Assembly: GCA_945862465.1 (NCBI GenBank)
Contig: CAMAYO010000020.1
Coordinates: forward strand, 1-36,655
Source of the DNA: Pseudorhodobacter antarcticus
GTDB lineage: Bacteria; Pseudomonadota; Alphaproteobacteria; Rhodobacterales; Rhodobacteraceae
Direction of reading: 5' to 3'
Length of the DNA stretch: 36,655 nucleotides
Shown one piece after another: positions 1-14,713 of this stretch; positions within the stretch are counted from its first letter, which is position 1, and each line of letters opens with the position of its first letter. Below the pieces are notes generated by a model. It did not search any database, was not told the origin of the DNA, and was given only the letters and a program-made list of their open reading frames with translations. A program made the translations under genes and the position numbers.

Positions 1-65
1 GCCAGCACCGCCAGCTTAATGATCTGCGACAGATTCGGGTCCATAGGCGCAGAATGCAGGGTCAT
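1..65 (-). CDS. iorB: indolepyruvate oxidoreductase subunit beta (5' fragment)
   Basis: Only the first 21 codons lie in the window; the gene runs off the left edge. The ATG at 65-63 overlaps the TGA of the upstream iorA (64-62) in an ATGA arrangement, which indicates translational coupling. The visible N-terminus reads MTLHSAPMDPNLSQIIKLAV. The identification comes from position: in this family the alpha subunit, which carries the thiamine diphosphate and iron-sulfur sites, is followed directly by the beta subunit. The fragment is too short for an independent family assignment. Confidence 0.6.
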   Translation of the reverse strand, partial: MTLHSAPMDPNLSQIIKLAVL

Positions 66-2209
66 GCCGCCCCCCCAAACACCAAGCGGCGTGCGGCGCG
101 GCGGCTTTGCAGCCAGCCGATCACACGGGCGCGCACACCCGCCCAGCGCCGCTCAAACGCGCTTGGGTTATGCACCACATCGGCGCGGTAAAAGCTGGGG
201 CACAGCACGGCGGCATCGGCCACCTCGCCGCAATTGCCACAGCCCACACAGCTTTGGTCAATCGAGGCCACCGGATCATCGCGCAGCGGATCGTCCAGCG
301 TTTTTAACCCCAGCGAAGGGCAGCCCGACAGCCGGATACAGGCATGATCACCGGTGCAAATGTCTTCATCCACGCCAAACCGCGGCGCTTCCACGCGCCT
401 GCCTTCCTTGATCGCCGCCGCCGCCAGCGGCTTTTCACGGCGCTGCTTGTTCAGCATACATTCCGACGAGGCAATGATAACCTTGGGCCCCGCCTCTTTC
501 GTCGTCAGCGCCTCTATCAGCACATCGCGCATATGGCCGACATCGTAAGTGCGGTTCACTTGGCGGACCCAATCAATCCCCACGCCCTTTAGCGCCTTGG
601 AAATCGGATGCTGGGTTTTTTTGGTGGCGTTGCTGGCGCGGGATGACAAAACATCCTGCCCCCCCGTCGCCGCCGAATAGTAGTTGTCAACGATAACAGC
701 CACCGAATCCGACTTGTTGAACGCCATATTTCCAAACGAAGAGCTTAAGCCGTTGTGCCAAAACCCCCCATCGCCAATGATCGAAATCGGCCGCCGCTCG
801 CCCCCGCCATCAAAGGCGGCGTTGGCGGCAGGGCCTAGGCCATAGCCCATCGTCGCCCCGCCAATTTCAAACGGCGGCAGGCTGCCGAACAGGTGACAGC
901 CGATGTCGGCGGTGATCTGCAACTTGCCCGTCTGCTTCTGCGCCAGCTTCATCGCGGCAAAGATCGGGCGTTCGGGGCAACCTGTGCAAAACCCCGGTGG
1001 GCGGATGGGCACGGTTTTCGACAGGTCGGGCACTTTGGGGCGGTCTTGGTTCGGAGCGCGCACAAGCGACGGCAGCAGGTCGGGTGCCGATTTTCGCAGA
1101 AAATCCGTGATCCCGTCTAGCATCACTTGCCCCGTGTATTCACCCGCCATCGGCAAAATGCCTTTGCCGTGCAGCTTCACTTGGGAACCCGCACGATAAA
1201 GATAGGTGGTCAACTGCTGTTCGATGAACTCTGGCTGACCTTCTTCAATCACAAGGATCTGCTCTTTACCGGCGCAGAAGTCCAAGAATTCGGATGACAC
1301 CAGCGGATAGGTCACGTTCAGCACATACAGCGGCACCTGCGACGCGCCGTAGATATCGGCCAGCCCCAAGCGTTGCAGCGCGCGGATGACGCCGTTGTAC
1401 ATACCGCCTTGAAGCACCAAGCCAACGGGGGCAGATTTGGGGCCGAACACCTCGTTCAACTGGTTCTCGACAATGAACTTTTCCGCCGCAGGCCAGCGGT
1501 TTTTGATCTTGTCTTGCTCGTGAATATACGACATCGGCGGCAGCACCACGCGGGCGAAATCCGACTGCGGCGCGCTGAGCGCGTCGCGCACCGATAGCGG
1601 CGGGCGCATGTTGTCTTTGGCGGCAAAGCTGCCCGTCACATGGCACGACCTGATGCGCACCATCAGCATCACGGGGGAGTTTGACGCCTCGGATAGCGCA
1701 AAGCCATCGGCCACGGCTTTGGTGATAGATGTCAGATTGGGGCGCGGGTCTAGCAGCCAGAACTGCGACTTCATCGCAAAAGCGTGGCTGCGTTCCTGCA
1801 TGATCGAGGACCCTTCGCCGTAATCCTCGCCCACGATAATCAGCGCGCCACCGTTCACACCAGACGAGGCCAAGTTCGCCAAAGCGTCAGAGGCCACGTT
1901 GACCCCAACCGATCCTTTAAACGTCACCGCGCCGCGAATAGGGTAATGCACCGAAGCGGCCAGCATCGCTGCCGCCGCCGCCTCGTTTGCGTTGGCTTCA
2001 AAGCGCACACCCAGTTCGCCCAACAGCTCTTCGGCATCGGCCAGCACATCCATCAAATGGCTGATCGGCGCGCCTTGATAGCCGCCCACATAGCCCACGC
2101 CGTTTTCCAGCAGGGCCTTGGTGATGGCCAAGATGCCTTCGCCGGTAAATGTATCGCCCGCGCCTAGGCGCAGATGTTCCACCTCGGCCTTGAAGGAACG
2201 CTCTGCCAT
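62..2209 (-). CDS. iorA: indolepyruvate-type 2-oxoacid:ferredoxin oxidoreductase, alpha subunit
   Basis: The 715-residue protein belongs to the thiamine-diphosphate, iron-sulfur 2-oxoacid oxidoreductases, which decarboxylate aryl 2-oxo acids such as indolepyruvate. Order: pyrimidine-binding domain (from about residue 15), transketolase-like domain 2, TPP-binding domain with GDGGFWHNG followed about 25 residues on by VDNYY, then a C-terminal ferredoxin domain. There the first cluster motif is C618-x2-D621-x2-C624-x5-C630-P, with Asp where the second Cys is usual. The second is C654-x2-C657-x2-C660-x9-C670-P. I chose ATG 2209 because the match to the family starts there and a purine-rich site (GGCAGAGG) lies just upstream, in the end of the MarR gene. 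A longer reading to 2476 would cover most of that gene. It is the fourth gene of the minus-strand operon, 1 bp after the MarR stop, and overlaps iorB by 4 bp. The physiological 2-oxo acid is not fixed by sequence. Confidence 0.88.
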   Translation of the reverse strand: MAERSFKAEVEHLRLGAGDTFTGEGILAITKALLENGVGYVGGYQGAPISHLMDVLADAEELLGELGVRFEANANEAAAAAMLAASVHYPIRGAVTFKGSVGVNVASDALANLASSGVNGGALIIVGEDYGEGSSIMQERSHAFAMKSQFWLLDPRPNLTSITKAVADGFALSEASNSPVMLMVRIRSCHVTGSFAAKDNMRPPLSVRDALSAPQSDFARVVLPPMSYIHEQDKIKNRWPAAEKFIVENQLNEVFGPKSAPVGLVLQGGMYNGVIRALQRLGLADIYGASQVPLYVLNVTYPLVSSEFLDFCAGKEQILVIEEGQPEFIEQQLTTYLYRAGSQVKLHGKGILPMAGEYTGQVMLDGITDFLRKSAPDLLPSLVRAPNQDRPKVPDLSKTVPIRPPGFCTGCPERPIFAAMKLAQKQTGKLQITADIGCHLFGSLPPFEIGGATMGYGLGPAANAAFDGGGERRPISIIGDGGFWHNGLSSSFGNMAFNKSDSVAVIVDNYYSAATGGQDVLSSRASNATKKTQHPISKALKGVGIDWVRQVNRTYDVGHMRDVLIEALTTKEAGPKVIIASSECMLNKQRREKPLAAAAIKEGRRVEAPRFGVDEDICTGDHACIRLSGCPSLGLKTLDDPLRDDPVASIDQSCVGCGNCGEVADAAVLCPSFYRADVVHNPSAFERRWAGVRARVIGWLQSRRAARRLVFGGAA

Positions 2210-2210
2210 G

Positions 2211-2672
2211 TCAAACCTCTGCCTTGCCGGTGTTGGCGTGAATTTTCTGCAAGGTAGCCACAAAGGCGCGTTGCTCTTCTGGGTCAATGCCTGCGAACAA
2301 ATCGGCATAGGTGCCCGCCATGTGTGGCCAAAGCGCGTCAAAGGCAGTGCGCCCCGCCTCGGTGATAAACACCCACACCATGCGGCTATCAGCTTCATCG
2401 GCCGCACGGCGCACCATGCCGTCAGCTTCCAGCGCGTCAATGGCGCGCGATAGGGTGGATTGTTCGACGATGGCATGCACCGCCAATTGCCCGATCACCA
2501 AGCCATCCATCACCGACAGCACCGCCAAGGCGCGCATTTTCGGCGTGGTCAGGCCCAGTTTGGCCATTTCCGCGCGAATGGCAGCGTTATAGCGCCCCAT
2601 GATGCGGTTCATCAAATAGGGCGGGTAGTTGGCCAGCCCTATCTCGCCCAAACTGGGTGCAGTGCCTTTCAT
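2211..2672 (-). CDS. MarR-family transcriptional regulator
   Basis: This 153-residue protein has the usual MarR length and layout. An N-terminal dimerisation helix (MNRIMGRYNAAIRAEMAKLG) is followed by a winged helix in which VEQSTLSRAIDALEADGMV is the recognition helix region and ADEADSRMVWVFIT is the wing. MarR proteins commonly repress catabolic or efflux operons and release DNA when an aromatic ligand binds. The gene sits inside the catabolic operon: its ATG (2672-2670) overlaps the stop of the flavoprotein gene by 4 bp, and iorA starts 1 bp after its own stop. I infer that it controls its own operon and perhaps the divergent transporter operon through the 5019-5136 interval. The ligand is unknown. 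Confidence 0.85.
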   Translation of the reverse strand: MKGTAPSLGEIGLANYPPYLMNRIMGRYNAAIRAEMAKLGLTTPKMRALAVLSVMDGLVIGQLAVHAIVEQSTLSRAIDALEADGMVRRAADEADSRMVWVFITEAGRTAFDALWPHMAGTYADLFAGIDPEEQRAFVATLQKIHANTGKAEV

Positions 2673-4225
2673 GCGCCCAACCTCTTGGCCGCTAAGAACC
2701 CTGATCCACCCCCCAAGCCGGGGCCGGGGTGGGTTGATGCGCCGATGTGCTGCAACCCGCGCAAAGCTTGGCCACCTGCGCCGTGGGCATAGGGACGCCA
2801 AATAAAGAACTGATCAAGGCTGCATTGCCCACCGTAAGGGTCGCCACCCACAAGGTTGACGTTCATCGCCTCCAGATCGACAGGCGAATAGGCCGTGCGC
2901 GCCAACTTTATCTTGGCGAAATCCTTGATGTAACGAGCTAGAATGGCTTCGATGCGGTCCGCAAACGCCTCTTTCGCTGCACCCCAATGCTGCGCAGCAA
3001 TTTCACCCGCAGCATCGCCTTTGATGACGCGCGGCGCATCGGGAATTTGCAGCCACAGGATGGCTTTTCCCTCTGGGCAGCGGGACGGGTCTAGCCGATG
3101 CGGTTGGCCTACGCAGATGGTGGGCACAGCGGGCAGCATCCCGCGCTCTGCCTCGTTCGCCGATTTTGACACGGCGTCGATCCCGTCTGACAGGTGGATC
3201 AGCGCCACATCCTCTAGCCCTGCCGACAGCCATTCAGGTACGGCATCCAGCGCGTAGTGCAGTTGGAAATTGCCGCGCCCGTGGCGAAAGGCCTTCGCCG
3301 CCGCCTGATCTTGGGGCAAGTTCACATCGGCCAGCAGCCTGTCTTGCAACTGCGACGGCGTGACCGAGGCGAGGACTGAGCGGCAGGCGATCTGTTCCCC
3401 ACCCGCAAGCCGAACGCCCGTAACCCGCCCATCTTGCACCAAAACCCGCTCCACATCGGCATTCACCCTGATCTGCCCGCCCTTTTCAGCGATCAACTTG
3501 GCGAAAGCCTGTGCCGCTTGGCCTGCGCCACCCTTGGCGATGGGGGCCCCTGCGGCTTCCAAAGCAAAGGCGATAACCTTGGCCATTTGGCCGGAATAGG
3601 CGCTGTCAGGGGTAAGCCCGCAATGCAGCACCCAAGGGGCAAACAGGGCCTGCACATTGGGGCTTTGGAAATCAGTCTCTAACCAAACCCGCGCGGGCGA
3701 CAGGGCTTGGCCGAACCATGCCGCCAACCCGCGCAACCCGCGCTTGCGGGCTTGGGTGAAAAGCAGTTTGAACGTGGCCCAAGACCACAGATTGCCACCG
3801 AGCAAAGCGAACAAAAACGGCGCATCGGCCCCGATCTGCCCCACAACAGCGGCATGGGCTTCACCGTCGCCGTGCGCCTGCGCGTTGAAGGCGGCGATGT
3901 TCTTAGCGCGGTCCATCGTCAGCACCAGACTTGACCCATCCGGCCGCACCACGGCGGTGGGGTGGGGCGAATGGCAATAGTCAAACCCATGCCGCGCCAA
4001 ATGGGCCCCAAGGGCGGCCCCCGCTGGCCCTGTCATGAACAGAACAAAGGTGGCGGCCATCACGTCATGCTGAAAGCCGGGCAAGGTGATCTCATCTGTG
4101 CGCAGACAGCCGCCGATCCGGTCAGACCGTTCAAGCAGCAGTACGCGGTCGCCCTTGATGGCAAGCATGGCGCCTGCCACCAAAGCGTTGATCCCTGACC
4201 CGATGATGACGTGATCAGGCGTCAT
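2669..4225 (-). CDS. FAD-dependent oxidoreductase, phytoene dehydrogenase/PYROXD2-like
   Basis: The 518-residue flavoprotein has a Rossmann ADP-binding fold at its N-terminus (VIIGSGINALVAGAML, then LLLERSDRIGG) and a second FAD contact region at the C-terminus (HPGPGLGGGSGFLAAKRL). This is the architecture of the CrtI/PYROXD2 branch of the amine-oxidase superfamily. No other carotenoid gene lies nearby, so carotenoid desaturation is unlikely; an oxidation or dehydrogenation step in the local catabolic pathway is the better inference. ATG 4225 puts the GxGxxG motif at residue 8 and follows the cyclase-family stop by 1 bp; the TGA overlaps the MarR start. A paralogue of the same architecture is at 5137-6717 on the other strand. 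The substrate is unknown. Confidence 0.85.
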   Translation of the reverse strand: MTPDHVIIGSGINALVAGAMLAIKGDRVLLLERSDRIGGCLRTDEITLPGFQHDVMAATFVLFMTGPAGAALGAHLARHGFDYCHSPHPTAVVRPDGSSLVLTMDRAKNIAAFNAQAHGDGEAHAAVVGQIGADAPFLFALLGGNLWSWATFKLLFTQARKRGLRGLAAWFGQALSPARVWLETDFQSPNVQALFAPWVLHCGLTPDSAYSGQMAKVIAFALEAAGAPIAKGGAGQAAQAFAKLIAEKGGQIRVNADVERVLVQDGRVTGVRLAGGEQIACRSVLASVTPSQLQDRLLADVNLPQDQAAAKAFRHGRGNFQLHYALDAVPEWLSAGLEDVALIHLSDGIDAVSKSANEAERGMLPAVPTICVGQPHRLDPSRCPEGKAILWLQIPDAPRVIKGDAAGEIAAQHWGAAKEAFADRIEAILARYIKDFAKIKLARTAYSPVDLEAMNVNLVGGDPYGGQCSLDQFFIWRPYAHGAGGQALRGLQHIGASTHPGPGLGGGSGFLAAKRLGA

Positions 4226-4226
4226 C

Positions 4227-5018
4227 TTACCCGCGCGGAACCAGCGCCAAGGCACGGATGGGCGAGCCTGTGCCATTCTTGATCTTCAAGGGGGCCGCAA
4301 TCAGGATAGCCCCTTTGGCGGGCAGTTTGTCTAGGTTGGCCAAAGACGCCAAACCGAAGCAGTTGTTCTTGTGCAGCAGGTTGTGCGCCGGATAGGGCGG
4401 CGTCATCCCACCCGCTTGGCCCGCATCGGTGCCAATGCACTGCGTGCCCCAGCCGACAATGCCCTTGGACAGAAGATATTGCACCACCTCGGCGGTAGGC
4501 CCGGGGGTGTGGGGGCCGGTTTCGTCGGCGTTCAGGAACAGGTTTTCGTCATGCGAACGCTTGTCCCAATCGCTGCGCAGCACAACCCATTCACCAGCGT
4601 TGATGGCACCGTGCTTGGCCTCCCACGCTTTCACATGGTCGATGGTCAGCAAAAAGTCTGCGTTCTTTCCACATTCAGCAGCGAAATCCAGCACGTTCAC
4701 CGGGGCGACCAAGCGCTGCACGGCCAGCGTGTCGGTATAACCATCGGCAAAATCCTTGCCGGTGATCCAGTGATGCGGCGCGTCAAAGTGGGTGCCCGAA
4801 TGCTCGCCCACTTTCAGCCAGTTCCACGCCCAGAACGGCCCGTTCTGGTCATAGTTGGAAATCGTGTGAATCTCGATCTTAGGGGTGTCTTTGGCGAAAT
4901 CCGGCGGCAGCTTCAACAGCGGCGTGTCTGGCCCCAAAACGCCGGTGCAATCCACCACTTCAACCCCGCCCGAGGCCAGCATTCCAGCCAGACTGGCCAG
5001 CACATTTGCAGATGTCAT
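4227..5018 (-). CDS. cyclase-family metal hydrolase, isatin hydrolase-like
   Basis: The protein has 263 residues and belongs to the cyclase family (PF04199), which includes kynurenine formamidase and isatin hydrolase. The metal motif H73-SGT-H77-F-D79-APHHW is intact, with further candidate active-site residues H212 and S225. From memory, the manganese ligands of the Labrenzia isatin hydrolase are numbered His73, His77 and Asp79, with Ser225 in its proton path. Full length and numbering therefore agree, which favours isatin hydrolase (isatin to isatinate) over kynurenine formamidase. ATG 5018 has a strong site, GGGAGAGAAAC, just upstream; a longer frame to 5048 lacks one. It is the first gene of the minus-strand operon, followed at 1 bp by the flavoprotein. 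A related cyclic amide or lactone is possible as substrate. Confidence 0.82.
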   Translation of the reverse strand: MTSANVLASLAGMLASGGVEVVDCTGVLGPDTPLLKLPPDFAKDTPKIEIHTISNYDQNGPFWAWNWLKVGEHSGTHFDAPHHWITGKDFADGYTDTLAVQRLVAPVNVLDFAAECGKNADFLLTIDHVKAWEAKHGAINAGEWVVLRSDWDKRSHDENLFLNADETGPHTPGPTAEVVQYLLSKGIVGWGTQCIGTDAGQAGGMTPPYPAHNLLHKNNCFGLASLANLDKLPAKGAILIAAPLKIKNGTGSPIRALALVPRG

Positions 5019-5136
5019 GTTTCTCTCCCTGTCGTGATGACTGCGCATAGGTTTCGGCAGGGCGGTGCGATTGTGCCCGTGCCCGATAGAATCATGCTAG
5101 ACAGAATTAAATGCGTTTGCAAATATCAACACTGAA
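5019..5136. promoter_or_regulatory. divergent promoter/operator region of the catabolic and transporter operons
   Basis: This is the only interval separating the two divergent operons. For the minus strand a promoter can be read as TTGCAA (5117-5122, complementary reading), a 17-bp spacer, and TAGCAT (reverse of 5094-5099). The same 5094-5099 hexamer (ATGCTA) also lies 17 bp downstream of TTGTGC (5071-5076) on the plus strand. A perfect 8-bp palindrome, TTTGCAAA, at 5116-5123 covers the minus-strand -35 box and would be a reasonable operator for the MarR protein encoded in the operon. All these matches are weak and read by eye. Confidence 0.4.
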
Positions 5137-6717
5137 GTGACGGAGGACAATCGCTTGGCCGAGTTCGACGCAGTGCTGATCGGCGCAGGGCATAACAGCT
5201 TGGCCGCCGCCTTGCATCTGGCAGCCAAAGGCTGGCGCGTTGGCGTGTTTGAAGCGGCCACTGTGTCGGGCGGTGCGGTTAAGACGGGGGAGTATACCCT
5301 GCCGGGCTTTCGCCATGATTGGGCCGCGATGAACCTGTCGCTCTTCGCTGGGAGCCCGTTTTTCAAAACCTATGGTGCAGAACTGGGGAAACATGGCTGC
5401 GCCTTTGTGCCAGTGGCCAAGCCCTTTGCGTCATCGTTCGCCGATGGCAGCCATGTGGGTGTTTCCACAGATATGGCGCAAACCTTGGCAATGATTGCAG
5501 CCCTGTCGCCCGAAGATGCTGCAACTTGGGCCCGCCTATGCGGCGGCTTTGGGGCCGAAGCGCCGCATTTGTTTGGCCTTTTGGGCGAGCGGATGCAGTT
5601 TCGTGCGCTTGCATATTTCATATTCAAAACACTCCGCGCAAAAGGGGTGGCGGGCACGGTGGATATGCTGCGCTTTTTGCTGCAATCGCCGCGCGGGTGG
5701 TTGGGGGAAACCTTTCAAAACGCCAAAGTGCAAGCCATGCTGGGCGCTTGGGGAATGCACCTAGACTTTGCCCCCGATGTCGCCGGTGGCGCGCTGTTTC
5801 CGTATCTAGAGGGTATGGCAGGCCAAGCCTTTGGCATGGTGATTGGCCAAGGCGGGGCGGATACGGTGGTTAAAGCCATGGTATCGGCCCTTCAGGCGCG
5901 GGGCGGCGTGGTGGAAACCAATGCCAAAGTGGCGCGCATTTTGCATGACGGGGGCCGCGCCACAGGGGTGGAACTGGCCGATGGCCGCAAGATCATAGCG
6001 CAAAAGGCCGTGATCGCAGGAGTTGCCCCAAGTGCGCTGACACGGCTGACGGGGGGCACAACGCCTGCCTTCGATGCTGGCATGGCGCGCTTTGATCATG
6101 CCCCGGGCACGATGATGATTCACCTTGCCCTGTCCGACTTGCCCGCGTGGCGCGCGCAAGACCTGCGCAGCTTTGCCTATGTGCATATCGCGCCCAGCTT
6201 GGATCAAATGGCGAAAACCTATGCGCAAGCGAAAGCGGGGCTTTTGCCGGATGAGCCGATTTTGGTAATCGGCCAGCCCACGGTGGTAGACCACTCGCGC
6301 GCGCCGCAGGGCCAGCACACGCTTTGGGTGCAGGTGCGTATGGCACCGGGCACGATCTTGGGCGATGCGGCGGGGCAGATTGCGGCGACCGATTGGGCAG
6401 AAGCGGCAGAACCCTTCGCCAACCGCGCGCTGAATATTCTGGAAGCCCACGCCCCCGGCACCCGCGCCAGCATCTTGGCCAAACGCATCGTCACGCCGCT
6501 GGACCTACAGGCCGACAACGCGAATTTAGTCGGCGGCGACCAAGTGTGCGGGTCGCACCACCTGTCACAGCATTTCCTTTTCCGTCCCATGCGCGGTCAT
6601 GCGGACGGCTCTACCCCGATCACGAACCTTCACCTAACCGGAGCCGCCGTTTGGCCCGGTGCGGGCACGGGGGCCGGGTCGGGCTATCTGCTTGCACGGC
6701 GACTTGCCGGAAACTGA
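5137..6717 (+). CDS. FAD-dependent oxidoreductase, phytoene dehydrogenase/PYROXD2-like (second copy)
   Basis: This flavoprotein of about 520 residues shows VLIGAGHNSLAAALHLA and FEAATVSGG at the N-terminus (ADP-binding Rossmann fold) and VWPGAGTGAGSGYLLARRL at the C-terminus. It has the same family and layout as the protein at 2669-4225, probably as a diverged paralogue; both share TLPGF near residue 55. The start is uncertain. The GTG at 5137 has little upstream support, whereas a TTG at 5155 follows GGAGG (5142-5146) at good spacing and would give MAEFDAVLIGAG, six residues shorter. It is the first gene of the plus-strand operon, 43 bp before the substrate-binding protein, so oxidation appears co-expressed with uptake. 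The substrate is not known. Confidence 0.85.
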   Translation: MTEDNRLAEFDAVLIGAGHNSLAAALHLAAKGWRVGVFEAATVSGGAVKTGEYTLPGFRHDWAAMNLSLFAGSPFFKTYGAELGKHGCAFVPVAKPFASSFADGSHVGVSTDMAQTLAMIAALSPEDAATWARLCGGFGAEAPHLFGLLGERMQFRALAYFIFKTLRAKGVAGTVDMLRFLLQSPRGWLGETFQNAKVQAMLGAWGMHLDFAPDVAGGALFPYLEGMAGQAFGMVIGQGGADTVVKAMVSALQARGGVVETNAKVARILHDGGRATGVELADGRKIIAQKAVIAGVAPSALTRLTGGTTPAFDAGMARFDHAPGTMMIHLALSDLPAWRAQDLRSFAYVHIAPSLDQMAKTYAQAKAGLLPDEPILVIGQPTVVDHSRAPQGQHTLWVQVRMAPGTILGDAAGQIAATDWAEAAEPFANRALNILEAHAPGTRASILAKRIVTPLDLQADNANLVGGDQVCGSHHLSQHFLFRPMRGHADGSTPITNLHLTGAAVWPGAGTGAGSGYLLARRLAGN

Positions 6718-6760
6718 AAAACCGTGAACACTGCAAAAAACCACAACAGGGACCAACAAA

Positions 6761-8278
6761 ATGAACCTTAGCAGACGCAGCCTTTTGAAGCTGTCGGGCG
6801 CGGCCATCGCCGCCTCGGTCGCTTTGCCCAGCTTTGCCCAAGCGATTGACGAGCTGGTGATCGCCTATAACGTGCCCTTGCCATCATGGGATCCGACCAC
6901 AGGCCCCTCGGCGGTCAACCCGACCATTCAAGGCCTGTACCAGTCAGTGTTTGACCAGTTCATCCTGCAACAGCCCGACCTGAAACCCGCCCCCGGTCTG
7001 CTGACCGAATGGGGGTGGAACGATGACAAAACCCAAGTGCACATGACCGTGCGCGAAGGTGTCACGTGGCACGACGGTTCGCCCTTTACCGCCGAAGACG
7101 TGGCGTGGAGCCTTGAGCGCGCCGCCAACCCCGAAACCGGCAACCCGATCAACTTCGTCTGGGCCTCGCTTGGCAATTTCAAGGTGGATGGCAACACGGT
7201 TACCGCCGATGTCAAACAATTCGACCCCACGATCTTTAAGTGGATGTATTTCCTGACCGGCTATGTGCTGCCCAAGGCATATTACACCGCAGTGGGCGCG
7301 GAAGGGTTTGAAAAGGCCCCAATCGGCACCGGACCCTACATGGTGGAAAAGTTCGAACAGAACGCCTTTGTGCGCCTGAAGGCCAATGCCAACTACTGGG
7401 GTGGCAAGCCTGACTTTGACACGGTGACGATCAAGTTCGTGACCGACTCCGCCGCCCGTGTGGCCGAGATTGAAAGCGGGTCCAGCCATGTCACGCTGGA
7501 AATGCCCTATGAAGAATACGACCGCTTGAAGGGCAATATGAACGCCTATGCAACGCCCGTGTCCGACATCGGGATGATCTTCCTGAACGACATCGAGGTG
7601 ATGGCCGACCCCAACGTGCGCAAAGCCGCTGTGGCCGCGATTGACAAACAGGCCATCGTGGATCGCCTGCTGTCGGGCTACGGCGTGCCGATCGACACGC
7701 TGGAGACGCCAGAATATGACGCTTACGATGCGTCGATCAAAACGCCCTATGATCCGGATGCAGCCATCGCCTTGCTGGCGGCATCGGGCTATAGCGTTGA
7801 TAACCCTGTCAAGTTCAAGATCCAGACCACCAAGGGCTTCAAGCCCAAGGACTATGAGATGATCCAAGCCATCGTGGGCCTGTGGCGCAAAGTGGGGATC
7901 GAGGCCGAGATCGAAGTTTACGAGATCGCAAAGCACTACGAACTGCGCGGCGCTGACCAACTGGCACCGGCGGCGTTCTACAACTGGGGCAACTCGGTCG
8001 CGGACCCGACCACGTCGACCGGCTTTGCGATGTTCGGACCCTCGCCCCACTCGGTTTGGGATAGCCAAGATCTGATCGACAAGATCGGCCCACTGTGGGG
8101 CGAGAAGGACGAAGCCAAACGGATTGAAGGCTGGAAAGGCGTAAGCCGCTATGTCGCGGAAAACGCCTATGTCATCCCGTTGCTGCAATATGTGCAGCCG
8201 ATCTTGGCGGCCAAGGGTGTGACGGTGACACCGCACCATTCCGGTGCGTTGCTGCCGCATCTGATGAAGCGGGCGTAA
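6761..8278 (+). CDS. ABC transporter substrate-binding protein, peptide/opine family (SBP_bac_5)
   Basis: This 505-residue periplasmic binding protein has a twin-arginine signal (SRRSLLKLSG at residues 4-13, hydrophobic stretch, cleavage near SFAQA), so it is probably exported folded by Tat. The mature part has the family 5 pattern: PTIQGLYQSVFD, then TVREGVTWHDGSPFTAEDVAWSLE, GTGPYMVEKF and NANYWGG. It captures the ligand for the permeases and ATPases that follow. The family binds peptides, nickel, opines, glycosides and other small molecules, so the fold does not name the ligand; neighbours suggest the compound processed by the flanking oxidoreductases. It is separated from the first permease by a repeat-containing 135-bp gap, which may let it be made in excess. 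Confidence 0.9.
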   Translation: MNLSRRSLLKLSGAAIAASVALPSFAQAIDELVIAYNVPLPSWDPTTGPSAVNPTIQGLYQSVFDQFILQQPDLKPAPGLLTEWGWNDDKTQVHMTVREGVTWHDGSPFTAEDVAWSLERAANPETGNPINFVWASLGNFKVDGNTVTADVKQFDPTIFKWMYFLTGYVLPKAYYTAVGAEGFEKAPIGTGPYMVEKFEQNAFVRLKANANYWGGKPDFDTVTIKFVTDSAARVAEIESGSSHVTLEMPYEEYDRLKGNMNAYATPVSDIGMIFLNDIEVMADPNVRKAAVAAIDKQAIVDRLLSGYGVPIDTLETPEYDAYDASIKTPYDPDAAIALLAASGYSVDNPVKFKIQTTKGFKPKDYEMIQAIVGLWRKVGIEAEIEVYEIAKHYELRGADQLAPAAFYNWGNSVADPTTSTGFAMFGPSPHSVWDSQDLIDKIGPLWGEKDEAKRIEGWKGVSRYVAENAYVIPLLQYVQPILAAKGVTVTPHHSGALLPHLMKRA

Positions 8279-8292
8279 GCCTGCTTGACCAA

Positions 8293-8360
8293 GCCGGGGG
8301 GTTTCACACCCCCCCGGACCCCGCTCCAAAGCCGGGGGGTTTCACACCCCCCGGACCCCC
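8293..8360. repeat. tandem GC-rich palindromic repeat (REP-like) between binding protein and permease genes
   Basis: Two near-identical units lie at 8293-8320 and 8331-8360. Each contains GCCGGGGGG, TTTCACA and CCCCCC followed by GGACCCC, so each unit can fold into a strong hairpin of six or more G-C pairs. The block is followed by GTGGGATATTTG and then ATATGAAAGGGG, a tail I associate with dispersed extragenic repeats in Rhodobacteraceae genomes. There is no T-tract, so it is not a typical terminator; it may stabilise the 3' end of the binding-protein message or reduce read-through into the permeases. Confidence 0.7.
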
Positions 8361-8413
8361 CGTGGGATATTTGTGCACATATGAAAGGGGCAAATGGCCC
8401 CTGATGAGGCTTC

Positions 8414-9424
8414 GTGGCCCTGTTACAGACCCTTATTCTGCGCGTGATCACCACCGCCGTGACCCTGTTAGGTGTGGCGGTGATTGTGTTTTTTGTGATC
8501 CGCGTGGTGCCAGGAAACCCCATTGCCATGATGCTGCCGCCGGGGGCTACGGCAGAGGATATTGCCAATCTGACGGCGATTTACGGTTTGGATAAGTCGA
8601 TCCCGCAGCAGTTTTTCATCTGGGGTACGGGGGTTTTGGGCGGAGATTTTGGCACCTCGATCACCTTGAAACAGCCCGTGTTGGAGCTTGTTCTGGGGCG
8701 GTTGCCGGCCACGTTAGAGCTTTCAGTGCTGGCCTTGGTTATGGCGATTGTCATCGGTGGGGCGGCGGCGCTGACAGGAACCCGCTTGCGGGAAACGCGG
8801 GTGGAAGGCGGAATCGATGTGGCCCAAGGTATGGCCCTGTCGGTTCCCGATTTTCTGTGGGGGCTGGTGTTGATTTTGGTCTTTGGCGTGTTGGTGCCGG
8901 TGTTCCAAATCTCGGGTCGTGTGACACCCTCGCTGCAACTACCGTTTGTGAGCGATTTTTACTTGGTGGAAAGCCTGCTGCGGCTGCGCTTTGATCTGAG
9001 CCTGGACCTTCTGTCGCATATGCTTCTGCCAGCCTTGGCCTTGGCCATTCCACTGGCGGCGATCATCGGGCAGTTGTTGAAGCAAAGCCTGAAAGAGACG
9101 ATGCATCTGGATTACGTCACCTTGGCGCGCACCCAAGGCTATTCGGAAGCCAAGGTGATCTGGTCGCAGGCGCTGCCCAATGCGATTTTGCCGACGCTGA
9201 CCTTGGTGGGGGTGCAGTTCACCTTTCTCATCGGCGGCACGGTGATCATCGAGCGGCTGTTTTCATACGAAGGCTTGGGCAACATGGCGATTGATGCCGT
9301 GATCAACCGCGATTTGCCGCTTATACAGGGCATTGTGATCTTGTTTGCCGTGATCTTCACTGGCGTGAACCTGCTGGTCGATCTGACCTATGCCGCCTTG
9401 AACCCAAGGTTGCGTCATGGCTGA
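8414..9424 (+). CDS. ABC transporter permease, DppB/OppB-type
   Basis: This 336-residue inner-membrane permease has the DppB layout: a first membrane helix (LLGVAVIVFFVIRVVPGNP), a periplasmic domain rich in the PQQFFIWGTGVLGGDFGTS pattern, then five further hydrophobic segments. The cytoplasmic EAA loop (ARTQGYSEAKVIWSQALPNA) contacts the ATPase. It starts with GTG at 8414, preceded by TGAGGC. Its stop overlaps the next permease start by 8 bp, indicating coupled translation of the pair that forms the transmembrane channel. Confidence 0.9.
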   Translation: MALLQTLILRVITTAVTLLGVAVIVFFVIRVVPGNPIAMMLPPGATAEDIANLTAIYGLDKSIPQQFFIWGTGVLGGDFGTSITLKQPVLELVLGRLPATLELSVLALVMAIVIGGAAALTGTRLRETRVEGGIDVAQGMALSVPDFLWGLVLILVFGVLVPVFQISGRVTPSLQLPFVSDFYLVESLLRLRFDLSLDLLSHMLLPALALAIPLAAIIGQLLKQSLKETMHLDYVTLARTQGYSEAKVIWSQALPNAILPTLTLVGVQFTFLIGGTVIIERLFSYEGLGNMAIDAVINRDLPLIQGIVILFAVIFTGVNLLVDLTYAALNPRLRHG

Positions 9425-10268
9425 GGGACGGTTTCAAGTGCGCCGCAGGGCAGGAGTGCGGCTGTGGCTTTCGGCGGCTTGGCTGATCGTGCTGGTCATC
9501 GTGGCCTTGTTTGCCCCCTATTTAGCGCCGAAAGACCCGCTGGAGCAGGATTTGTTCGCAGGCCGTTTGCCACCATTTTGGATGCAGGGGGCAGATGCGG
9601 CATTCTTGCTGGGCACCGATAGCCTTGGGCGCGATGTGCTAAGCCGGATCATCTTTGGCACCCGCATTGCGCTGACGGTGGCAGTGATTTCGGCCAGCCT
9701 GACCTGCTTGGTGGGCGCAGCACTTGGCCTGCTGGCGGGGTTTTATCGCGGCTGGGTTGATGTGGTTGTGTCGCGCTTTATCGATATCTGGATGGCGTTT
9801 CCGCCTGTCTTATTCTCGATCCTGCTGATTGCTGTCATCGGGCCGGGCCTGTTTTCGATCATCTTGGCAATTGTGGTGATCGATTGGACCCGCTTTGCCC
9901 GCGTGATCAGGGCTGAGGCTATGACGCAGAGCGCGATGGACTATGTCGCCTCAGCGCGCGTGGCGGGGCGGGGGCGGTTTGGCATTTTGCTGCGCGAGAT
10001 TTTGCCCAATGTGCTGCCCATCATCGTGGTGCTGCTGACGCTGGAAATGGGCATCGCGGTGATTGTGGAAGCGATTTTGTCTTTCGTGAACCTGTCGATT
10101 TCCACCGATGACCCGACCTGGGGCGGCATGATTTCGGAAGGGCGCACATCTATCCATCAAGCGTGGTGGGTGCTGGTCTTCCCGTTGATCACGCTGTTCT
10201 TGACCGTGCTGTCGTTTTCGCAACTGGGCGAGGGGTTGAAGAACCGCTTCGATCCGGTGCTGCGATGA
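9417..10268 (+). CDS. ABC transporter permease, DppC/OppC-type
   Basis: This 283-residue partner permease begins with a charged N-terminus and a first helix (LSAAWLIVLVIVALFAPYLAP), followed by the DppC-specific LGTDSLGRDVLSRIIFGTRIA. The EAA loop is visible as ASARVAGRGRFGILLREILP near the middle. It overlaps the preceding permease by 8 bp and the following ATPase by 4 bp (ATGA at 10265-10268). With its neighbour it makes the heterodimeric membrane channel of a peptide-type importer. Confidence 0.9.
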   Translation: MAEGRFQVRRRAGVRLWLSAAWLIVLVIVALFAPYLAPKDPLEQDLFAGRLPPFWMQGADAAFLLGTDSLGRDVLSRIIFGTRIALTVAVISASLTCLVGAALGLLAGFYRGWVDVVVSRFIDIWMAFPPVLFSILLIAVIGPGLFSIILAIVVIDWTRFARVIRAEAMTQSAMDYVASARVAGRGRFGILLREILPNVLPIIVVLLTLEMGIAVIVEAILSFVNLSISTDDPTWGGMISEGRTSIHQAWWVLVFPLITLFLTVLSFSQLGEGLKNRFDPVLR

Positions 10269-11113
10269 GCTTTTTGTCGGTGCGCAACCTGTCAGCACGG
10301 GTCAAGGGTGGCGGGCCTTTGCTGCGCGATGTGTCGTTGGATGTGGCTGTAGGCGAAGTGCGCGGCTTGGTTGGCGAAAGCGGTGCGGGCAAGTCGATGA
10401 TCGGCAAAGCGGTTTTGGGGATTTTGCCGAAGGCGGTTGAGATTACATCGGGCCAGATTATGCTGGACGGGGTTGATCTTTTGGCGCTGCCCCCCGCCCA
10501 GCGCCGCATCAAGGTGGGGGCGACCTGTGCGCTTATTCCGCAAGACCCGCTGACGGCCCTGAACCCCTCGCGTCGGATCGGGGTGCAGATCACCGACCGA
10601 TTGGTGGATATTCTGGGCTGGACGCGGCAGCGGGCCGAAGAGCGCGCGCTTGCCTTGCTGGGCGAAGTGCAGATCACCGAGCCCACCCGCGTGCTGCGGC
10701 AATATCCGCATGAATTGTCGGGCGGAATGCGCCAGCGCATCTTGATCGCATCCGCCTTTGCGGCGGAACCGAAGCTGATCGTGGCGGACGAGCCGACAAC
10801 CGCCTTGGATGTGACGGTGCAAAAGCAGATCCTAAAGCTGATCGCCGCCCTGCAAGTGCGGCATGGCACGGCGCTGCTGTTTGTGACGCATGATTTGGGT
10901 GTGGTCAGCAAGGTGTGCCAGAAGCTGTCGGTGCTGTATGCTGGCAAGGTGGTGGAGGACAGTGCGGTGGCAGATTTCTTCCGCGCACCCAAACACCCCT
11001 ATTCCGCAGCCCTTTTGGCCGCGACGCCGAAATACACCGACCCATTGGCCGGCTTGCAGCCCGTTCCCGAAGCTGTGATCGCCGCCGTGCGGGCCGAGGT
11101 GGCGCATGGCTGA
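10265..11113 (+). CDS. ABC transporter ATP-binding protein, DppD/OppD-type
   Basis: This 282-residue ATPase carries Walker A GESGAGKS near residue 38, the ABC signature LSGGMRQRI, Walker B LIVADEPTTALD, and a switch histidine in FVTHDLG. The C-terminal FFRAPKHPYSAALLAATP is the oligopeptide-transporter tail. The ATG at 10265 overlaps the permease stop in ATGA; an in-frame start at 10163 would lie inside the permease gene and is rejected. It hydrolyses ATP with the following gene product to drive import. Confidence 0.9.
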   Translation: MSFLSVRNLSARVKGGGPLLRDVSLDVAVGEVRGLVGESGAGKSMIGKAVLGILPKAVEITSGQIMLDGVDLLALPPAQRRIKVGATCALIPQDPLTALNPSRRIGVQITDRLVDILGWTRQRAEERALALLGEVQITEPTRVLRQYPHELSGGMRQRILIASAFAAEPKLIVADEPTTALDVTVQKQILKLIAALQVRHGTALLFVTHDLGVVSKVCQKLSVLYAGKVVEDSAVADFFRAPKHPYSAALLAATPKYTDPLAGLQPVPEAVIAAVRAEVAHG

Positions 11114-11906
11114 CTTATACACCATCACCGACCTGCACTTGTCTTTGGCCGATATGACGCGCAAGCCCTTGTTCGGATTGGCGCCTAGGCTGGATATTTT
11201 GAAGGGCCTAAGTTTCAGCATCGAAAAGGGCGCGGTGCTGGGGATTGTGGGCGGGTCAGGATCAGGCAAGTCAACGCTGGGGCGGGCTTTGGTGCGGTTG
11301 CTGGAACCCTCGGGCGGGCAGGTTGTGTTTGACGGGACCGATATCACCCACCTGTCCGACGCCGAATTGCGCCCGTTGCGGCGCAGGTTTCAGATGATCT
11401 TCCAAGACCCGATGAGCAGCCTGAACCCGCGCCACCGTGTTGGCACGATCATCGCTGAACCGTTGCGGCTGCACGGGTTTGACGGCATCCAAGCCCGCGT
11501 GCTGCGGGCGCTAGACCATGTGGGCTTGCCCAAAGAATTCGCGCAGCGCTACCCGCATGAGTTGTCAGGCGGGCAGCGGCAAAGGGTGGGCATCGCGCGG
11601 GCGATTGCACTAGAGCCGGACTTTATTCTGGCCGATGAGATTGTGTCGGGCCTTGATGTATCTTCCCAAGCGCAGGTGTTGAACCTGTTGGAACGCTTGG
11701 TGGCCGAACTTGGAATGACGCTGGCCTTCATCTCGCACGATCTAAGCGTGGTGCGGCGGTTGTGTCAGCGGGTGATGGTGTTGCAGCACGGACAGATCGT
11801 GGAAAACCGCGAGACGGCGGCGTTGTTTGCCGACCCGCAAGCGCAATACACCCGCGACTTGCTGGGGGCCATTCCGCTGCCTGACCCAAGTCAGGTGTGG
11901 GTCTAA
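11106..11906 (+). CDS. ABC transporter ATP-binding protein, DppF/OppF-type
   Basis: This 266-residue second ATPase has Walker A GGSGSGKST, Q-loop IFQDPMSSLNPRHRVG, signature LSGGQRQRVGIARA, Walker B FILADEIVSGLD and the H-loop ISHDLSVV. Walker B ends DEIVSGLD where DEPVSALD is common, a mild substitution. It overlaps the preceding ATPase by 8 bp and closes the transporter operon; the 80 bp to pyrF contain no clear terminator. Length is slightly below the usual 300-330 residues because the C-terminal tail is short. Confidence 0.9.
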   Translation: MADLYTITDLHLSLADMTRKPLFGLAPRLDILKGLSFSIEKGAVLGIVGGSGSGKSTLGRALVRLLEPSGGQVVFDGTDITHLSDAELRPLRRRFQMIFQDPMSSLNPRHRVGTIIAEPLRLHGFDGIQARVLRALDHVGLPKEFAQRYPHELSGGQRQRVGIARAIALEPDFILADEIVSGLDVSSQAQVLNLLERLVAELGMTLAFISHDLSVVRRLCQRVMVLQHGQIVENRETAALFADPQAQYTRDLLGAIPLPDPSQVWV

Positions 11907-12687: not shown

Positions 12688-13320
12688 TCAGAAAAGGTTT
12701 GTTGTGATTTTTGCTCGTGCGCGTAGGTGCGCTTGAACTTCCGCCTTAATGGTATCTGGGTGCTCCGGTCGTTCTTTGCATTTAGCGGCCCACTCGCGAC
12801 CCGGATGAAGGACATCCCATCGTGATCTCATTTGGTTAAAACGACCAGCGCCGGGCGTATGGTTTCCAAAGCCATCAACAATCACATTCCACAATGGCGA
12901 GAATTTCGAAATCATTAGGTTTTCACCAAGCGGAATCCAGATGTCGTCAACGATCAGATAACGACACCAAAAATCTTCTAAGTTTAGATTTCTAACCGCC
13001 CGAATGCTGTCAGCGTGCTCCTTAAGTCGCAGCCTCAGACTTCTACTTTCAGATAAGATCGATTGCTCTCCACCCTTTCGCCCGCCCAAAGGAATTGCTT
13101 TACCAACATAAATTGGTGATTTCCAAAACTGATTACGATTTTCATCCGAAAGTTGGCGGTAGGCGTCAAATTCTCCAACGTAGTATATCGAATAAATTCC
13201 TGCCCCTGCGAATGAATCCAAAGTTCCGAGTTGGACAGGCGCTTTTTCCAGTAAAGCCTCACCTACCGAGGCAGCGAGGTTTCTCTTATCTAATGGGTTA
13301 AATGGCAACGGATCGGTCAT
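12688..13320 (-). CDS. Eco29kI-family type II restriction endonuclease (GIY-YIG)
   Basis: The 210-residue protein carries a GIY-YIG nuclease fold: GIY at 41-43 and YVG at 71-73. The LRLRLKEH helix supplies R98 and H102; E133 and N145 follow in LGENLM and SPLWN. From memory the Eco29kI active site is Y49, Y76, R104, H108, E142 and N154, and the R-H and E-N spacings (4 and 12) agree exactly. The segment VDGFGNHTPGAGR is also typical. Eco29kI cuts CCGCGG; that specificity is likely but not certain here. Its start overlaps the methyltransferase stop by 4 bp, so both are translated from one message with the methylase first. Base composition is much more AT-rich than the flanks. Confidence 0.87.
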   Translation of the reverse strand: MTDPLPFNPLDKRNLAASVGEALLEKAPVQLGTLDSFAGAGIYSIYYVGEFDAYRQLSDENRNQFWKSPIYVGKAIPLGGRKGGEQSILSESRSLRLRLKEHADSIRAVRNLNLEDFWCRYLIVDDIWIPLGENLMISKFSPLWNVIVDGFGNHTPGAGRFNQMRSRWDVLHPGREWAAKCKERPEHPDTIKAEVQAHLRARAKITTNLF

Positions 13321-14522
13321 TGCATAAGTCGCTTTCTACCTTCCTGTCTGATGCTTGCCTCACAAAGTTTTTCGGCAACACTAGAAGCCACTGCCTGAGC
13401 AAGGACTACAGGGACAGCATTGCCGATTTGCCGCATCGCTTCTGACCAAGCACCATCAAATAGATAGCCGTCTGGAAAAGTCTGCAGCCGCGCGGCTTCG
13501 CGAATTGTGAAATATCTGACCAATCCATTTGGTAAAACGAGCATATTCTCGCCACCTGGCACACCATGTCCACCTGCTTTTAAAGCTTTTGAAGGGAAAT
13601 CTAGTGGGCTTCCGGTATGCCCCTGGTATGACTTGGCACCGATCTGCAAACGGTGGTTATAAACATGAGAGTATTCAGCTTCGAATGTCGGTTCAGGGAG
13701 GCCTATCAAGGCATCTCTGACAGTTTGCCACGGTGACGTTGTTGCGGGTTCATTGTCCCCTCGAATTTCACAAACTTTTTTCTTAAAAAAAGACGGCAAA
13801 GAGGGTCGTAGGCCTTTTGGCACTTCATGACGATCCCAGTACTCACCGGTAACCCATTGCGACCTTAGTAATTCACTTTGAGAATGTGTATGCTTAGGCC
13901 AATGCCACTGAACGTCTTGATCAGTTCTAAATCCAACTATGAAAACTCTATCGCGTTTTTGCGGTGTACCGAAGTCAGCAGCATTATACAGGTGCCTTTC
14001 GACGACATACCGCAACCCAATTTCTGCAGTTGAAGTCAAACATTCTGTTAAACGTTCAGAATGTCTTTCCCAACCTTCATTCTCGAAGCGCTCTATCTCG
14101 GGGGCTCTTAAGATATTTTCAATGTAATTTAAATAGTTTGTAAAATTAGATCGAGTCAGTCCACGAACGTTTTCGATGATGAAACTTCTTGGCTTAACTT
14201 GCGCCAAAACACGCGAGTAGGCTGAGAACATGTCGCGATCATCTTTATAAGCCTGGTGCTTCCCGCCAATCGAAAACGGTTGGCACGGCGGGCCCCCGGT
14301 AAGTAGATCAATAGTGCCCTGGTGTTCGGAAAAATCCATTTCTCTTACGTCACCGCGCAACACCGCGAGATTCCGTAGCAATGGATAGCCACGATCACGA
14401 TTTACTTCGAGAGTATTACAAGCCCAACGATCCCATTCTGCCGCAGCAACGGTATGAAAGCCCGCCATAGCCGTTCCAAGTGCTAGCCCACCAGCACCCG
14501 CAAATAGCTCAATTGAACGCAT
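13317..14522 (-). CDS. type II DNA (cytosine-5) methyltransferase of the Eco29kI-like system
   Basis: This 401-residue m5C methyltransferase has all main motifs in order: I (ELFAGAGGLALG, S-adenosylmethionine binding), IV (GGPPCQPFS, catalytic C80), VI (FIIENVRGL), VIII (QKRDRVFIVG), then the target-recognition region and motifs IX-X (EAARLQTFP and IGNAVPVVLA). It would protect host DNA from the partner nuclease by methylating the same site. CCGCGG is present many times in this window (for example near 375, 15027 and 30764), so the site is not avoided, as expected if it is methylated. The reading frame is low in GC: 25 of 60 bases at 13921-13980, against 44 of 60 in dinB at 15601-15660. ATG 14522 gives motif I at residue 3. 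Confidence 0.93.
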   Translation of the reverse strand: MRSIELFAGAGGLALGTAMAGFHTVAAAEWDRWACNTLEVNRDRGYPLLRNLAVLRGDVREMDFSEHQGTIDLLTGGPPCQPFSIGGKHQAYKDDRDMFSAYSRVLAQVKPRSFIIENVRGLTRSNFTNYLNYIENILRAPEIERFENEGWERHSERLTECLTSTAEIGLRYVVERHLYNAADFGTPQKRDRVFIVGFRTDQDVQWHWPKHTHSQSELLRSQWVTGEYWDRHEVPKGLRPSLPSFFKKKVCEIRGDNEPATTSPWQTVRDALIGLPEPTFEAEYSHVYNHRLQIGAKSYQGHTGSPLDFPSKALKAGGHGVPGGENMLVLPNGLVRYFTIREAARLQTFPDGYLFDGAWSEAMRQIGNAVPVVLAQAVASSVAEKLCEASIRQEGRKRLMQ

Positions 14523-14713
14523 AATCCCAAACCTCTCGACTGTTTTCCTCGTCCATCATCCTTAGCAGATAGATAGTCAACATTTCGAGGAAACTGTAAG
14601 TGACAACTTCGTCTTATTGCTTTGCGATATTCCTTCGGTTTCAACCTACCCCAAAGTTTACACTTTAGCAAACCGTTTCCCTCCCCCTCCCCCCATGCTA
14701 CCCTCCCCCCATC
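14523..14713. other. intergenic region between the restriction cassette and dinB
   Basis: These 191 bp separate two divergent genes. The left part is AT-rich like the cassette and presumably holds the methyltransferase promoter; the composition switches to pyrimidine-rich (CCCTCC runs) from about 14690, which probably marks the cassette edge. I found no LexA-type GTTC-N7-GTTC box for dinB, no duplicated target site and no control-protein gene. Confidence 0.4.

Follow-up and report, generated by a model that had tools for sequence, protein, structure and literature searches.

Introduction

Bacterial routes from indole compounds to anthranilate are among the closest described counterparts of the locus analysed here, an isatin hydrolase (IH) gene cluster within bases 62-11906 of a stretch of 36,655 nucleotides from Pseudorhodobacter antarcticus (assembly GCA_945862465.1, contig CAMAYO010000020.1; hereafter the window). 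One of these routes is encoded by the iad locus of Variovorax and Bradyrhizobium, which turns the auxin indole-3-acetic acid (IAA) into anthranilate and which, in the available parts of the two reports, has iorAB homologs and a MarR regulator in common with the window; its IadI, annotated as a kynurenine formamidase, acts after a compound of formula C8H7NO2 (PMC9613470, PMC12633357). Another is the iif cluster of Acinetobacter and Cupriavidus, where 3-hydroxyindolin-2-one (dioxindole) precedes the IifA step to anthranilate. A 2018 review did not decide whether indole degradation truly passes through isatin, and its available sections, which also cover the 2-aminobenzoyl-coenzyme A (CoA) pathway of anthranilate degradation, assign no iif gene to making or using isatin (PMC6221969). 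For isatin hydrolases, the sequence GLQC or GLAS together with the metal site has been presented as the apparent signature of activity, in the available part of that study (PMC6117287).

Here we describe a cluster conserved in freshwater and marine bacteria. From its gene content and order, its conservation, the isatin hydrolase signatures and a conserved site, all of which are observed, we favour with moderate confidence a reading in which the window carries the first half of a modular isatin pathway, predicted to run from dioxindole through isatin and isatinate to 2-aminobenzoyl-CoA and to be joined to a supply module, its activities, order and ligands being deduced from context. In the core module, the flavoprotein FlavA would turn dioxindole into isatin by oxidising the 3-hydroxyl group to a ketone, isatin hydrolase B would hydrolyse the ring to give isatinate, and IorAB with CoA would convert isatinate into 2-aminobenzoyl-CoA by oxidative decarboxylation. 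Isatinate is an aryl 2-oxo acid. A module on a second contig of the same genome (C59), with a monooxygenase/reductase fusion, hydratases, dehydrogenases, RidA and a benzoate-CoA-ligase-like enzyme, would then degrade the thioester. In the supply module, a peptide-type ATP-binding cassette (ABC) importer would take up a polar derivative of indole or oxindole and a second flavoprotein, FlavB, would oxidise it to the level accepted by FlavA, FlavB and the importer making up a second entry. A MarR protein may bind the single site between the operons and lift its hold on both in the presence of a pathway compound. We regard the cluster as a variant of already known indole and auxin catabolism, one that offers candidate genes for steps of indole breakdown so far without genes.

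The predicted isatin hydrolase and the two operons

The product of bases 4227-5018 is, as judged by motif, signature and pocket, a predicted isatin hydrolase B. With phmmer it gave a full-length match of 473.7 bits to isatin hydrolase B of Labrenzia (4J0N). Three further isatin hydrolases matched at 276.9-278 bits, a protein of the cyclase family at 87.9 bits and kynurenine formamidases at 22.9 bits. The metal motif HxG[T/A]HxDxPxH occurs as HSGTHFDAPHH at residue 73 and GLAS stands at residue 222, so that the Labrenzia aggregata enzyme (4J0N, 4M8D) and that of the window are alike in full-length match, metal motif and GLAS. An ungapped alignment to 4J0N places W63, W65, W84 and Y209 in the aromatic pocket, where Labrenzia B differs in having Phe63 and Phe209; the pocket positions of Labrenzia isatin hydrolase A are W, W, W and Y in the available text (PMC6117287). 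The initial annotation had called this an isatin-hydrolase-like enzyme, which the metal motif, GLAS and the aromatic pocket bear out at sequence level. N-formylkynurenine, which it had set beside isatin as a substrate to try, is disfavoured, the arylformamidase model TIGR03035 giving 29.4 bits against a cut-off of 223.05. Kynurenine formamidase identity was also rejected at the signature position, where the I(L/I)E motif is absent and GLAS is found instead.

The gene belongs to the leftward of two divergent operons, IH-flavA-marR-iorA, in which each gene abuts or overlaps its neighbour; the rightward operon holds flavB and the five genes of a peptide-type ABC importer. Base 1 of the window is base 1 of its contig (C20). 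For IorA and FlavA the shorter choices of start codon were taken, guided by relatives. The features are:

3-65, minus strand: 5′ end of iorB, first 21 codons (residues 1-21), found with the IorB of locus L043 as query; the contig end truncates the gene
62-2209, minus strand: IorA, alpha subunit of a 2-oxoacid oxidoreductase of the thiamine pyrophosphate (TPP) and iron-sulfur type (TPP_enzyme_C 50.6 bits; IOR_alpha 275.3 bits)
2211-2672, minus strand: MarR-family regulator, proposed pathway sensor (family profile match)
2669-4225, minus strand: FlavA, a flavin adenine dinucleotide (FAD) enzyme of the CrtI/amine-oxidase fold (profile and fold matches; adjoins IH in relatives)
4227-5018, minus strand: predicted isatin hydrolase type B (473.7 bits to 4J0N; metal motif at 73; GLAS at 222)
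5107-5126, minus strand: 20-base site ATATTTGCAAACGCATTTAA, proposed MarR operator for both operons (matrix score 38.5)
5137-6717, plus strand: FlavB, paralog of FlavA (profile and fold matches)
6761-8278, plus strand: periplasmic substrate-binding protein (SBP), family 5 (PF00496, 250.3 bits)
8414-9424, plus strand: importer permease, DppB type (profile match)
9417-10268, plus strand: importer permease, DppC type (profile match)
10265-11113, plus strand: importer ATPase, DppD type (profile match; first likely start codon at about 10265)
11106-11906, plus strand: importer ATPase, DppF type (profile match)

Profile searches recovered in the window all the families named by the initial annotation. 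Of its IorA/B pair, IorA stands, and IorB is present there up to residue 21 (bases 3-65), residues 296-510 being found with the same query at the end of the separate contig C59 (G000:C59:16457-17101). The peptide/nickel-type importer set is complete, with an SBP of family 5, two binding-protein-dependent permeases and two ATPases, none of which scored above the cut-off of the NCBIfam models shown. A ligand was also sought through the binding protein, whose closest solved relative gave 138.8 bits; the list of relatives holds dipeptide, nickel, opine and haem binders, and no ligand was inferred from it.

A conserved and modular cluster

For the locus counts, the best 80 of 411 IH relatives were kept, each gene being counted where the flank was long enough for it and scored as present at 80% or more of its full length. 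On the left side the counts were 66/77 for FlavA, 73/75 for MarR, 64/67 for IorA and 60/61 for IorB, and on the right side 63/72 for FlavB, 54/62 for the SBP, 52/60 and 49/58 for the B- and C-type permeases, and 48/57 and 49/57 for the D- and F-type ATPases. All ten genes were present at that length in 42 of the 52 loci that had long flanking sequence in both directions, and two more (L083, L090) have the ten genes with one of them split. The conserved island is more than chance, because so large a share of these loci holds it entire, and the conserved linkage that the initial annotation proposed to look for in relatives is found.

The seven supply genes, counted as FlavA, FlavB, the SBP, two permeases and two ATPases, were all present in 45 of the 52 loci (once with a split ATPase gene), all absent in five and reduced to remnants in two (L080, L089). 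Four loci (L107, L110, L114, L117) keep MarR-IorA-IorB with IH and have none of the seven; L094 lacks these as well as MarR, and L081 has all seven without MarR-IorAB. FlavA, FlavB and the importer behave as one unit in presence and absence, IH-MarR-IorAB may remain without them, and core and supply genes are separable modules.

A second draw of 149 genomes of the family, overlapping the first, yielded 27 with IH at E ≤ 1e-80 and 36 hits, 28 of them on long stretches, which divide into type B loci (IH identity of at least 67%; 22 of 28) and type A loci (47-55%; six of 28). All seven supply genes were found in 15 of the 22 type B stretches and none in the other seven, among them L146, with just 1755 bases upstream available. 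L139, L141 and L144, of type B, hold none of the counted genes. Among five further type B hits, with short flanks, L016 shows FlavA and FlavB and L021 FlavB, and in L011, L015 and L019 IH is directly followed by MarR and IorA. Moreover, across 385 genomes of the class, IH at 75% or more occurred in four, and FlavB (E ≤ 1e-110) in those same four only. The supply module points to an indole or oxindole compound, probably polar, that many Rhodobacteraceae take up.

Rieske oxygenase genes were found in none of the 22 type B loci as against four of the six type A loci, and Roseibium aggregatum has a 50% identical IH within a Rieske locus. The exception is Paracoccus saliphilus, in which a 75% identical IH and MarR-IorAB stand beside Rieske, ligase, thiolase and TRAP genes. 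This division suggests a reason why some bacteria carry both types of isatin hydrolase, A next to Rieske genes and B mostly in the cluster described here. The modules can also lie apart: on one plasmid of Sulfitobacter dubius, FlavA-FlavB-importer is found about 60 kb from IH-MarR-IorAB, and Sulfitobacter mediterraneus has the whole cluster in a single piece. In Mesorhizobium loti pML2037, FlavB (56%) and the importer (65-69%) occur among molybdenum hydroxylase genes with FlavA (57%) at a distance of 13 kb, and the 49 kb examined gave no match to IH. A three-subunit molybdenum hydroxylase, divergent to IH, also occupies the place of FlavB and the importer in L102, L107, L114 and L117 (about 6200-9860), where it is possibly another source of isatin.

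FlavA, FlavB and the proposed origin of isatin

FlavA and FlavB are paralogs, 37% identical. The best fold match for the models of both was 4REP (TM score of 0.76 by query length in each case), a comparison that speaks for the general CrtI/amine-oxidase class only. The fold and the FAD domain are common to them and the CrtO/CrtI carotenoid flavoenzymes, but FlavA and FlavB lie in a catabolic context. A carotenoid role was rejected: the CrtO model gave 131.9 bits for FlavA and 184.3 for FlavB against a cut-off of 1000, and neither protein attained the threshold of any CrtO or CrtI model.

FlavA is found with IH in further bacteria as well. In Azospirillum thermophilum the order is AraC, SDR, styrene/indole monooxygenase, flavin reductase, transporter, FlavA (59%) and IH (51%), the flavoprotein being closer to FlavA than to FlavB (35%). 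Alloyangia pacifica has SDR, monooxygenase, flavin reductase and a monooxygenase/reductase fusion followed by IH-FlavA-MarR-IorA-IorB, FlavB and the importer. Its monooxygenase scores 608.4 bits to 7Z4X, which we take to be the indole monooxygenase VpIndA1, and 213.9 on the StyA model, below the cut-off of 550. Five other loci (L056, L104, L129, L130, L134) have this monooxygenase together with the SDR downstream of IorB, L048 has the monooxygenase alone there, its stretch ending at that point, and SDR accompanies FMO in L049 and L095. In Tsukamurella (Actinomycetota), SDR, FMO (the first flavoprotein of the stretch) and FlavA (41%) are followed by IorB-IorA on the other strand and IH (44%).

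The StyA-type monooxygenase and SDR recall the iif cluster, where SDR would correspond to IifB, judging from gene order only; the Azospirillum and Alloyangia stretches show no gene annotated like IifA. The window genome differs from iif in showing neither a StyA-type monooxygenase nor an SDR ortholog, and its relatives carry FlavA and IH. Since dioxindole is the iif product before IifA in the available part of the review (PMC6221969), the step from dioxindole to isatin is left for FlavA, which is likely the isatin-forming enzyme by its context, as its fold allows. FlavB may be dispensable where an oxygenase makes dioxindole, because the stretches from Azospirillum and Tsukamurella showed none beyond the cross-match of FlavA. 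With an indole-monooxygenase-like enzyme, SDR, FlavA and isatin hydrolase in one cluster, the question of isatin as an intermediate becomes testable, and such clusters supply a candidate isatin-forming enzyme and a candidate role for IorAB beside the hydrolase. No description of the FlavA step, or of the conversion of isatinate to 2-aminobenzoyl-CoA by IorAB, was found in the open-licence literature searched.

A luciferase-like monooxygenase occurs in 24 of the 80 loci, 23 of these on the IorB side (e.g. L069:16620-18884), and a flavin reductase-like gene (23/80) and a MarR-like regulator (24/80) lie near IorB with it. The window genome has no clear ortholog of this enzyme (28% over part).

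IorAB and the proposed continuation on a second contig

IorA matches TPP_enzyme_C and has cysteines at 654, 657, 660 and 670. IH and IorAB also adjoin in Novosphingobium (L171); two plasmid records from this genus are unannotated. The suggestion of the initial annotation that isatinate could be a substrate of the IOR-type enzyme gained from two sides: IH and IorAB stay together in loci without importer and flavoproteins, and in this genome iorB is followed by a module of the 2-aminobenzoyl-CoA type. On contig C59 the genes after iorB encode a 3-hydroxyacyl-CoA dehydrogenase, an enoyl-CoA hydratase, a monooxygenase/reductase fusion, SDR, MarR, a hydratase, an acyl-CoA dehydrogenase, RidA and a benzoate-CoA-ligase-like protein. 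The fusion reaches 1264.8 bits on NF006101 (bifunctional salicylyl-CoA 5-hydroxylase/oxidoreductase; cut-off 1078); the model is named after salicylyl-CoA, and by comparison with known pathways the fusion would act on 2-aminobenzoyl-CoA. The ligase-like gene, at 361.5 bits on TIGR02262, falls just under the cut-off of 375.25.

A ligase-like gene and a monooxygenase/reductase fusion are features in common with the 2-aminobenzoyl-CoA pathway of anthranilate degradation in the available account (PMC6221969), but here the module adjoins iorB, and therefore the thioester may come straight from isatinate. IorAB would convert isatinate to 2-aminobenzoyl-CoA, and the pathway would continue on C59. Caballeronia has IorB, a thioesterase and the fusion enzyme in direct succession. 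Roseibium-like thioesterases occur in 20 of the 80 loci, 19 at 64-83% identity and one at 36%, and in L143 the thioesterase lies between IH and IorA. In L142 (8366-14836), IH-IorA-IorB is followed by RidA and a cupin 76% identical to that of the Caballeronia isatin hydrolase locus, which would be another downstream route.

The regulator and its proposed site

The solved chain nearest to MarR is 3CJN (178.8 bits), the auxin-binding MarR 7KFO giving 35.8 bits. Upstream of IH lies a 20-base site with the consensus ATATTTGCAAATGCATTTAA. Among 98 loci examined it was found, within six mismatches, in 84 of the 85 with MarR, L075 being the exception. Where the stretch has no MarR, the site is present in seven of 13 loci, namely L066, L101 and L103 (short stretches), L081 and L127 (probably one genome) and L138 and L140 (five mismatches), and absent in six, including L094. 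The window has one strong site, at 5107-5126, which scores 38.5 against 13.9 for the next best place; the matrix was built from the same loci, and it is this contrast with other places that is informative. Upstream of the monooxygenase fusion, whose module carries its own MarR gene, no convincing site appeared, the best score among 21 stretches being -1.9 as against 16.5 for the weakest site used in building the matrix. A sigma-70 scan of 4900-5250 gave no promoter match.

Weighing the proposed pathway

The initial annotation is borne out in part: its route from uptake to decarboxylation stands in outline, and the identity of the hydrolase, the linkage and the tie of IorAB to the hydrolase have held, but N-formylkynurenine as a substrate is not supported; to this we add the separable modules, FlavA as the likely isatin former and the continuation on C59. 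Several observations weigh against the pathway proposed here. Orthologs of the monooxygenase, FMO, SDR and Rieske enzymes, as possible sources of dioxindole, were not found in this genome, whose assembly is 92% complete, so that a gene could be missed: the StyA-type indole monooxygenase had no match at E ≤ 0.001 (an empty answer that, with no control, says little), and the best matches were 30% over part for FMO, 37% for SDR and 33% over residues 23-228 of 441 for the iadD-like Rieske protein. FlavA is missing beside IH in 10 of the 27 loci of type B in the family draw, and the Tsukamurella IH has the metal motif with neither GLAS nor GLQC. IorA, at 275.3 bits, misses the cut-off of 650.9 of the indolepyruvate model TIGR03336 and has three cysteines (618, 624, 630) in its first cysteine group. 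Moreover, the C59 ligase-like gene permits a route via free anthranilate, and in Variovorax, according to the available text, anthranilate formation from IAA is restored by the region iadC-K2, which contains neither iadA nor iadB (PMC12633357).

Possible, though tentative, is a route from an imported oxindole to the CoA thioester without an oxygenase, in which FlavB would dehydrogenate the oxindole to a reactive indol-2-one, water would give dioxindole, FlavA isatin, IH would open the ring and IorAB would yield 2-aminobenzoyl-CoA. It fits because FlavA and FlavB are paralogs, because FlavA occurs without a detected FlavB in the stretches of Azospirillum and Tsukamurella, which have SDR with an indole-monooxygenase-like or FMO-like enzyme, and because the indole-ring oxygenase orthologs searched for were not found in this genome.

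We consider it unlikely that IorAB acts upstream, on indolepyruvate, giving indole-3-acetyl-CoA, and is no more than a neighbour of the isatin step. The family name of IorA, the label 'Signaling - auxin' given to a Ruegeria iorA in a fitness study (PMC10041152) and the formation of anthranilate by Variovorax without iadAB, in the available part of PMC12633357, would suit such a role. However, IH-IorAB persist where the supply genes are absent, as well as adjoining in Novosphingobium, the indolepyruvate cut-off is missed, and genes of a CoA pathway follow iorB on C59. The iorA of Ruegeria pomeroyi (SPOA0111) had a fitness value of -0.12 in a three-species culture (PMC10041152).

Quite improbable, too, is an auxin locus, whose importer would take up IAA or its oxidised forms and whose flavoproteins would act on them, the route ending in anthranilate as in iad. 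That iorAB and MarR belong to iad loci (PMC9613470) and that Paracoccus saliphilus joins IH-MarR-IorAB to Rieske, ligase, thiolase and TRAP genes is consistent with it. Nevertheless, the IAA route is disfavoured, as the search for iadD-like Rieske proteins turned up no ortholog in this genome (33% over about half of the query at best, at the completeness given above); in place of IadCDE it has FlavA, FlavB and a Dpp-type importer. The distribution of Rieske genes between type B and type A loci argues likewise, and the overall score places MarR closer to 3CJN than to MarR_73.

Least probable of all is that FlavB and the importer handle some unrelated compound of nitrogen (peptide-, opine- or pyridine-like) and have only a regulator in common with the isatin genes, as the separate Mesorhizobium loti and Sulfitobacter dubius arrangements and the peptide, nickel, opine or haem binders among the SBP relatives might suggest, since 50 of the 52 long-flank loci have either all seven supply genes or none, with remnants in the other two, and FlavB is confined to the four of 385 class genomes with IH of at least 75%.

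Neighbouring sequences

Between the binding-protein and permease genes, window bases 8287-8394 form a hairpin repeat of two near-identical 32-base units, which folds well (z -2.76) and has at least 34 other matches in the genome, a lower bound as 40 of 260 candidates were scored. Beyond the importer, at 12688-14522, an Eco29kI-type restriction endonuclease and an adjoining C5 cytosine methylase make up a type II restriction-modification pair, around which the GC content is lower (0.491 at 13001-15000).

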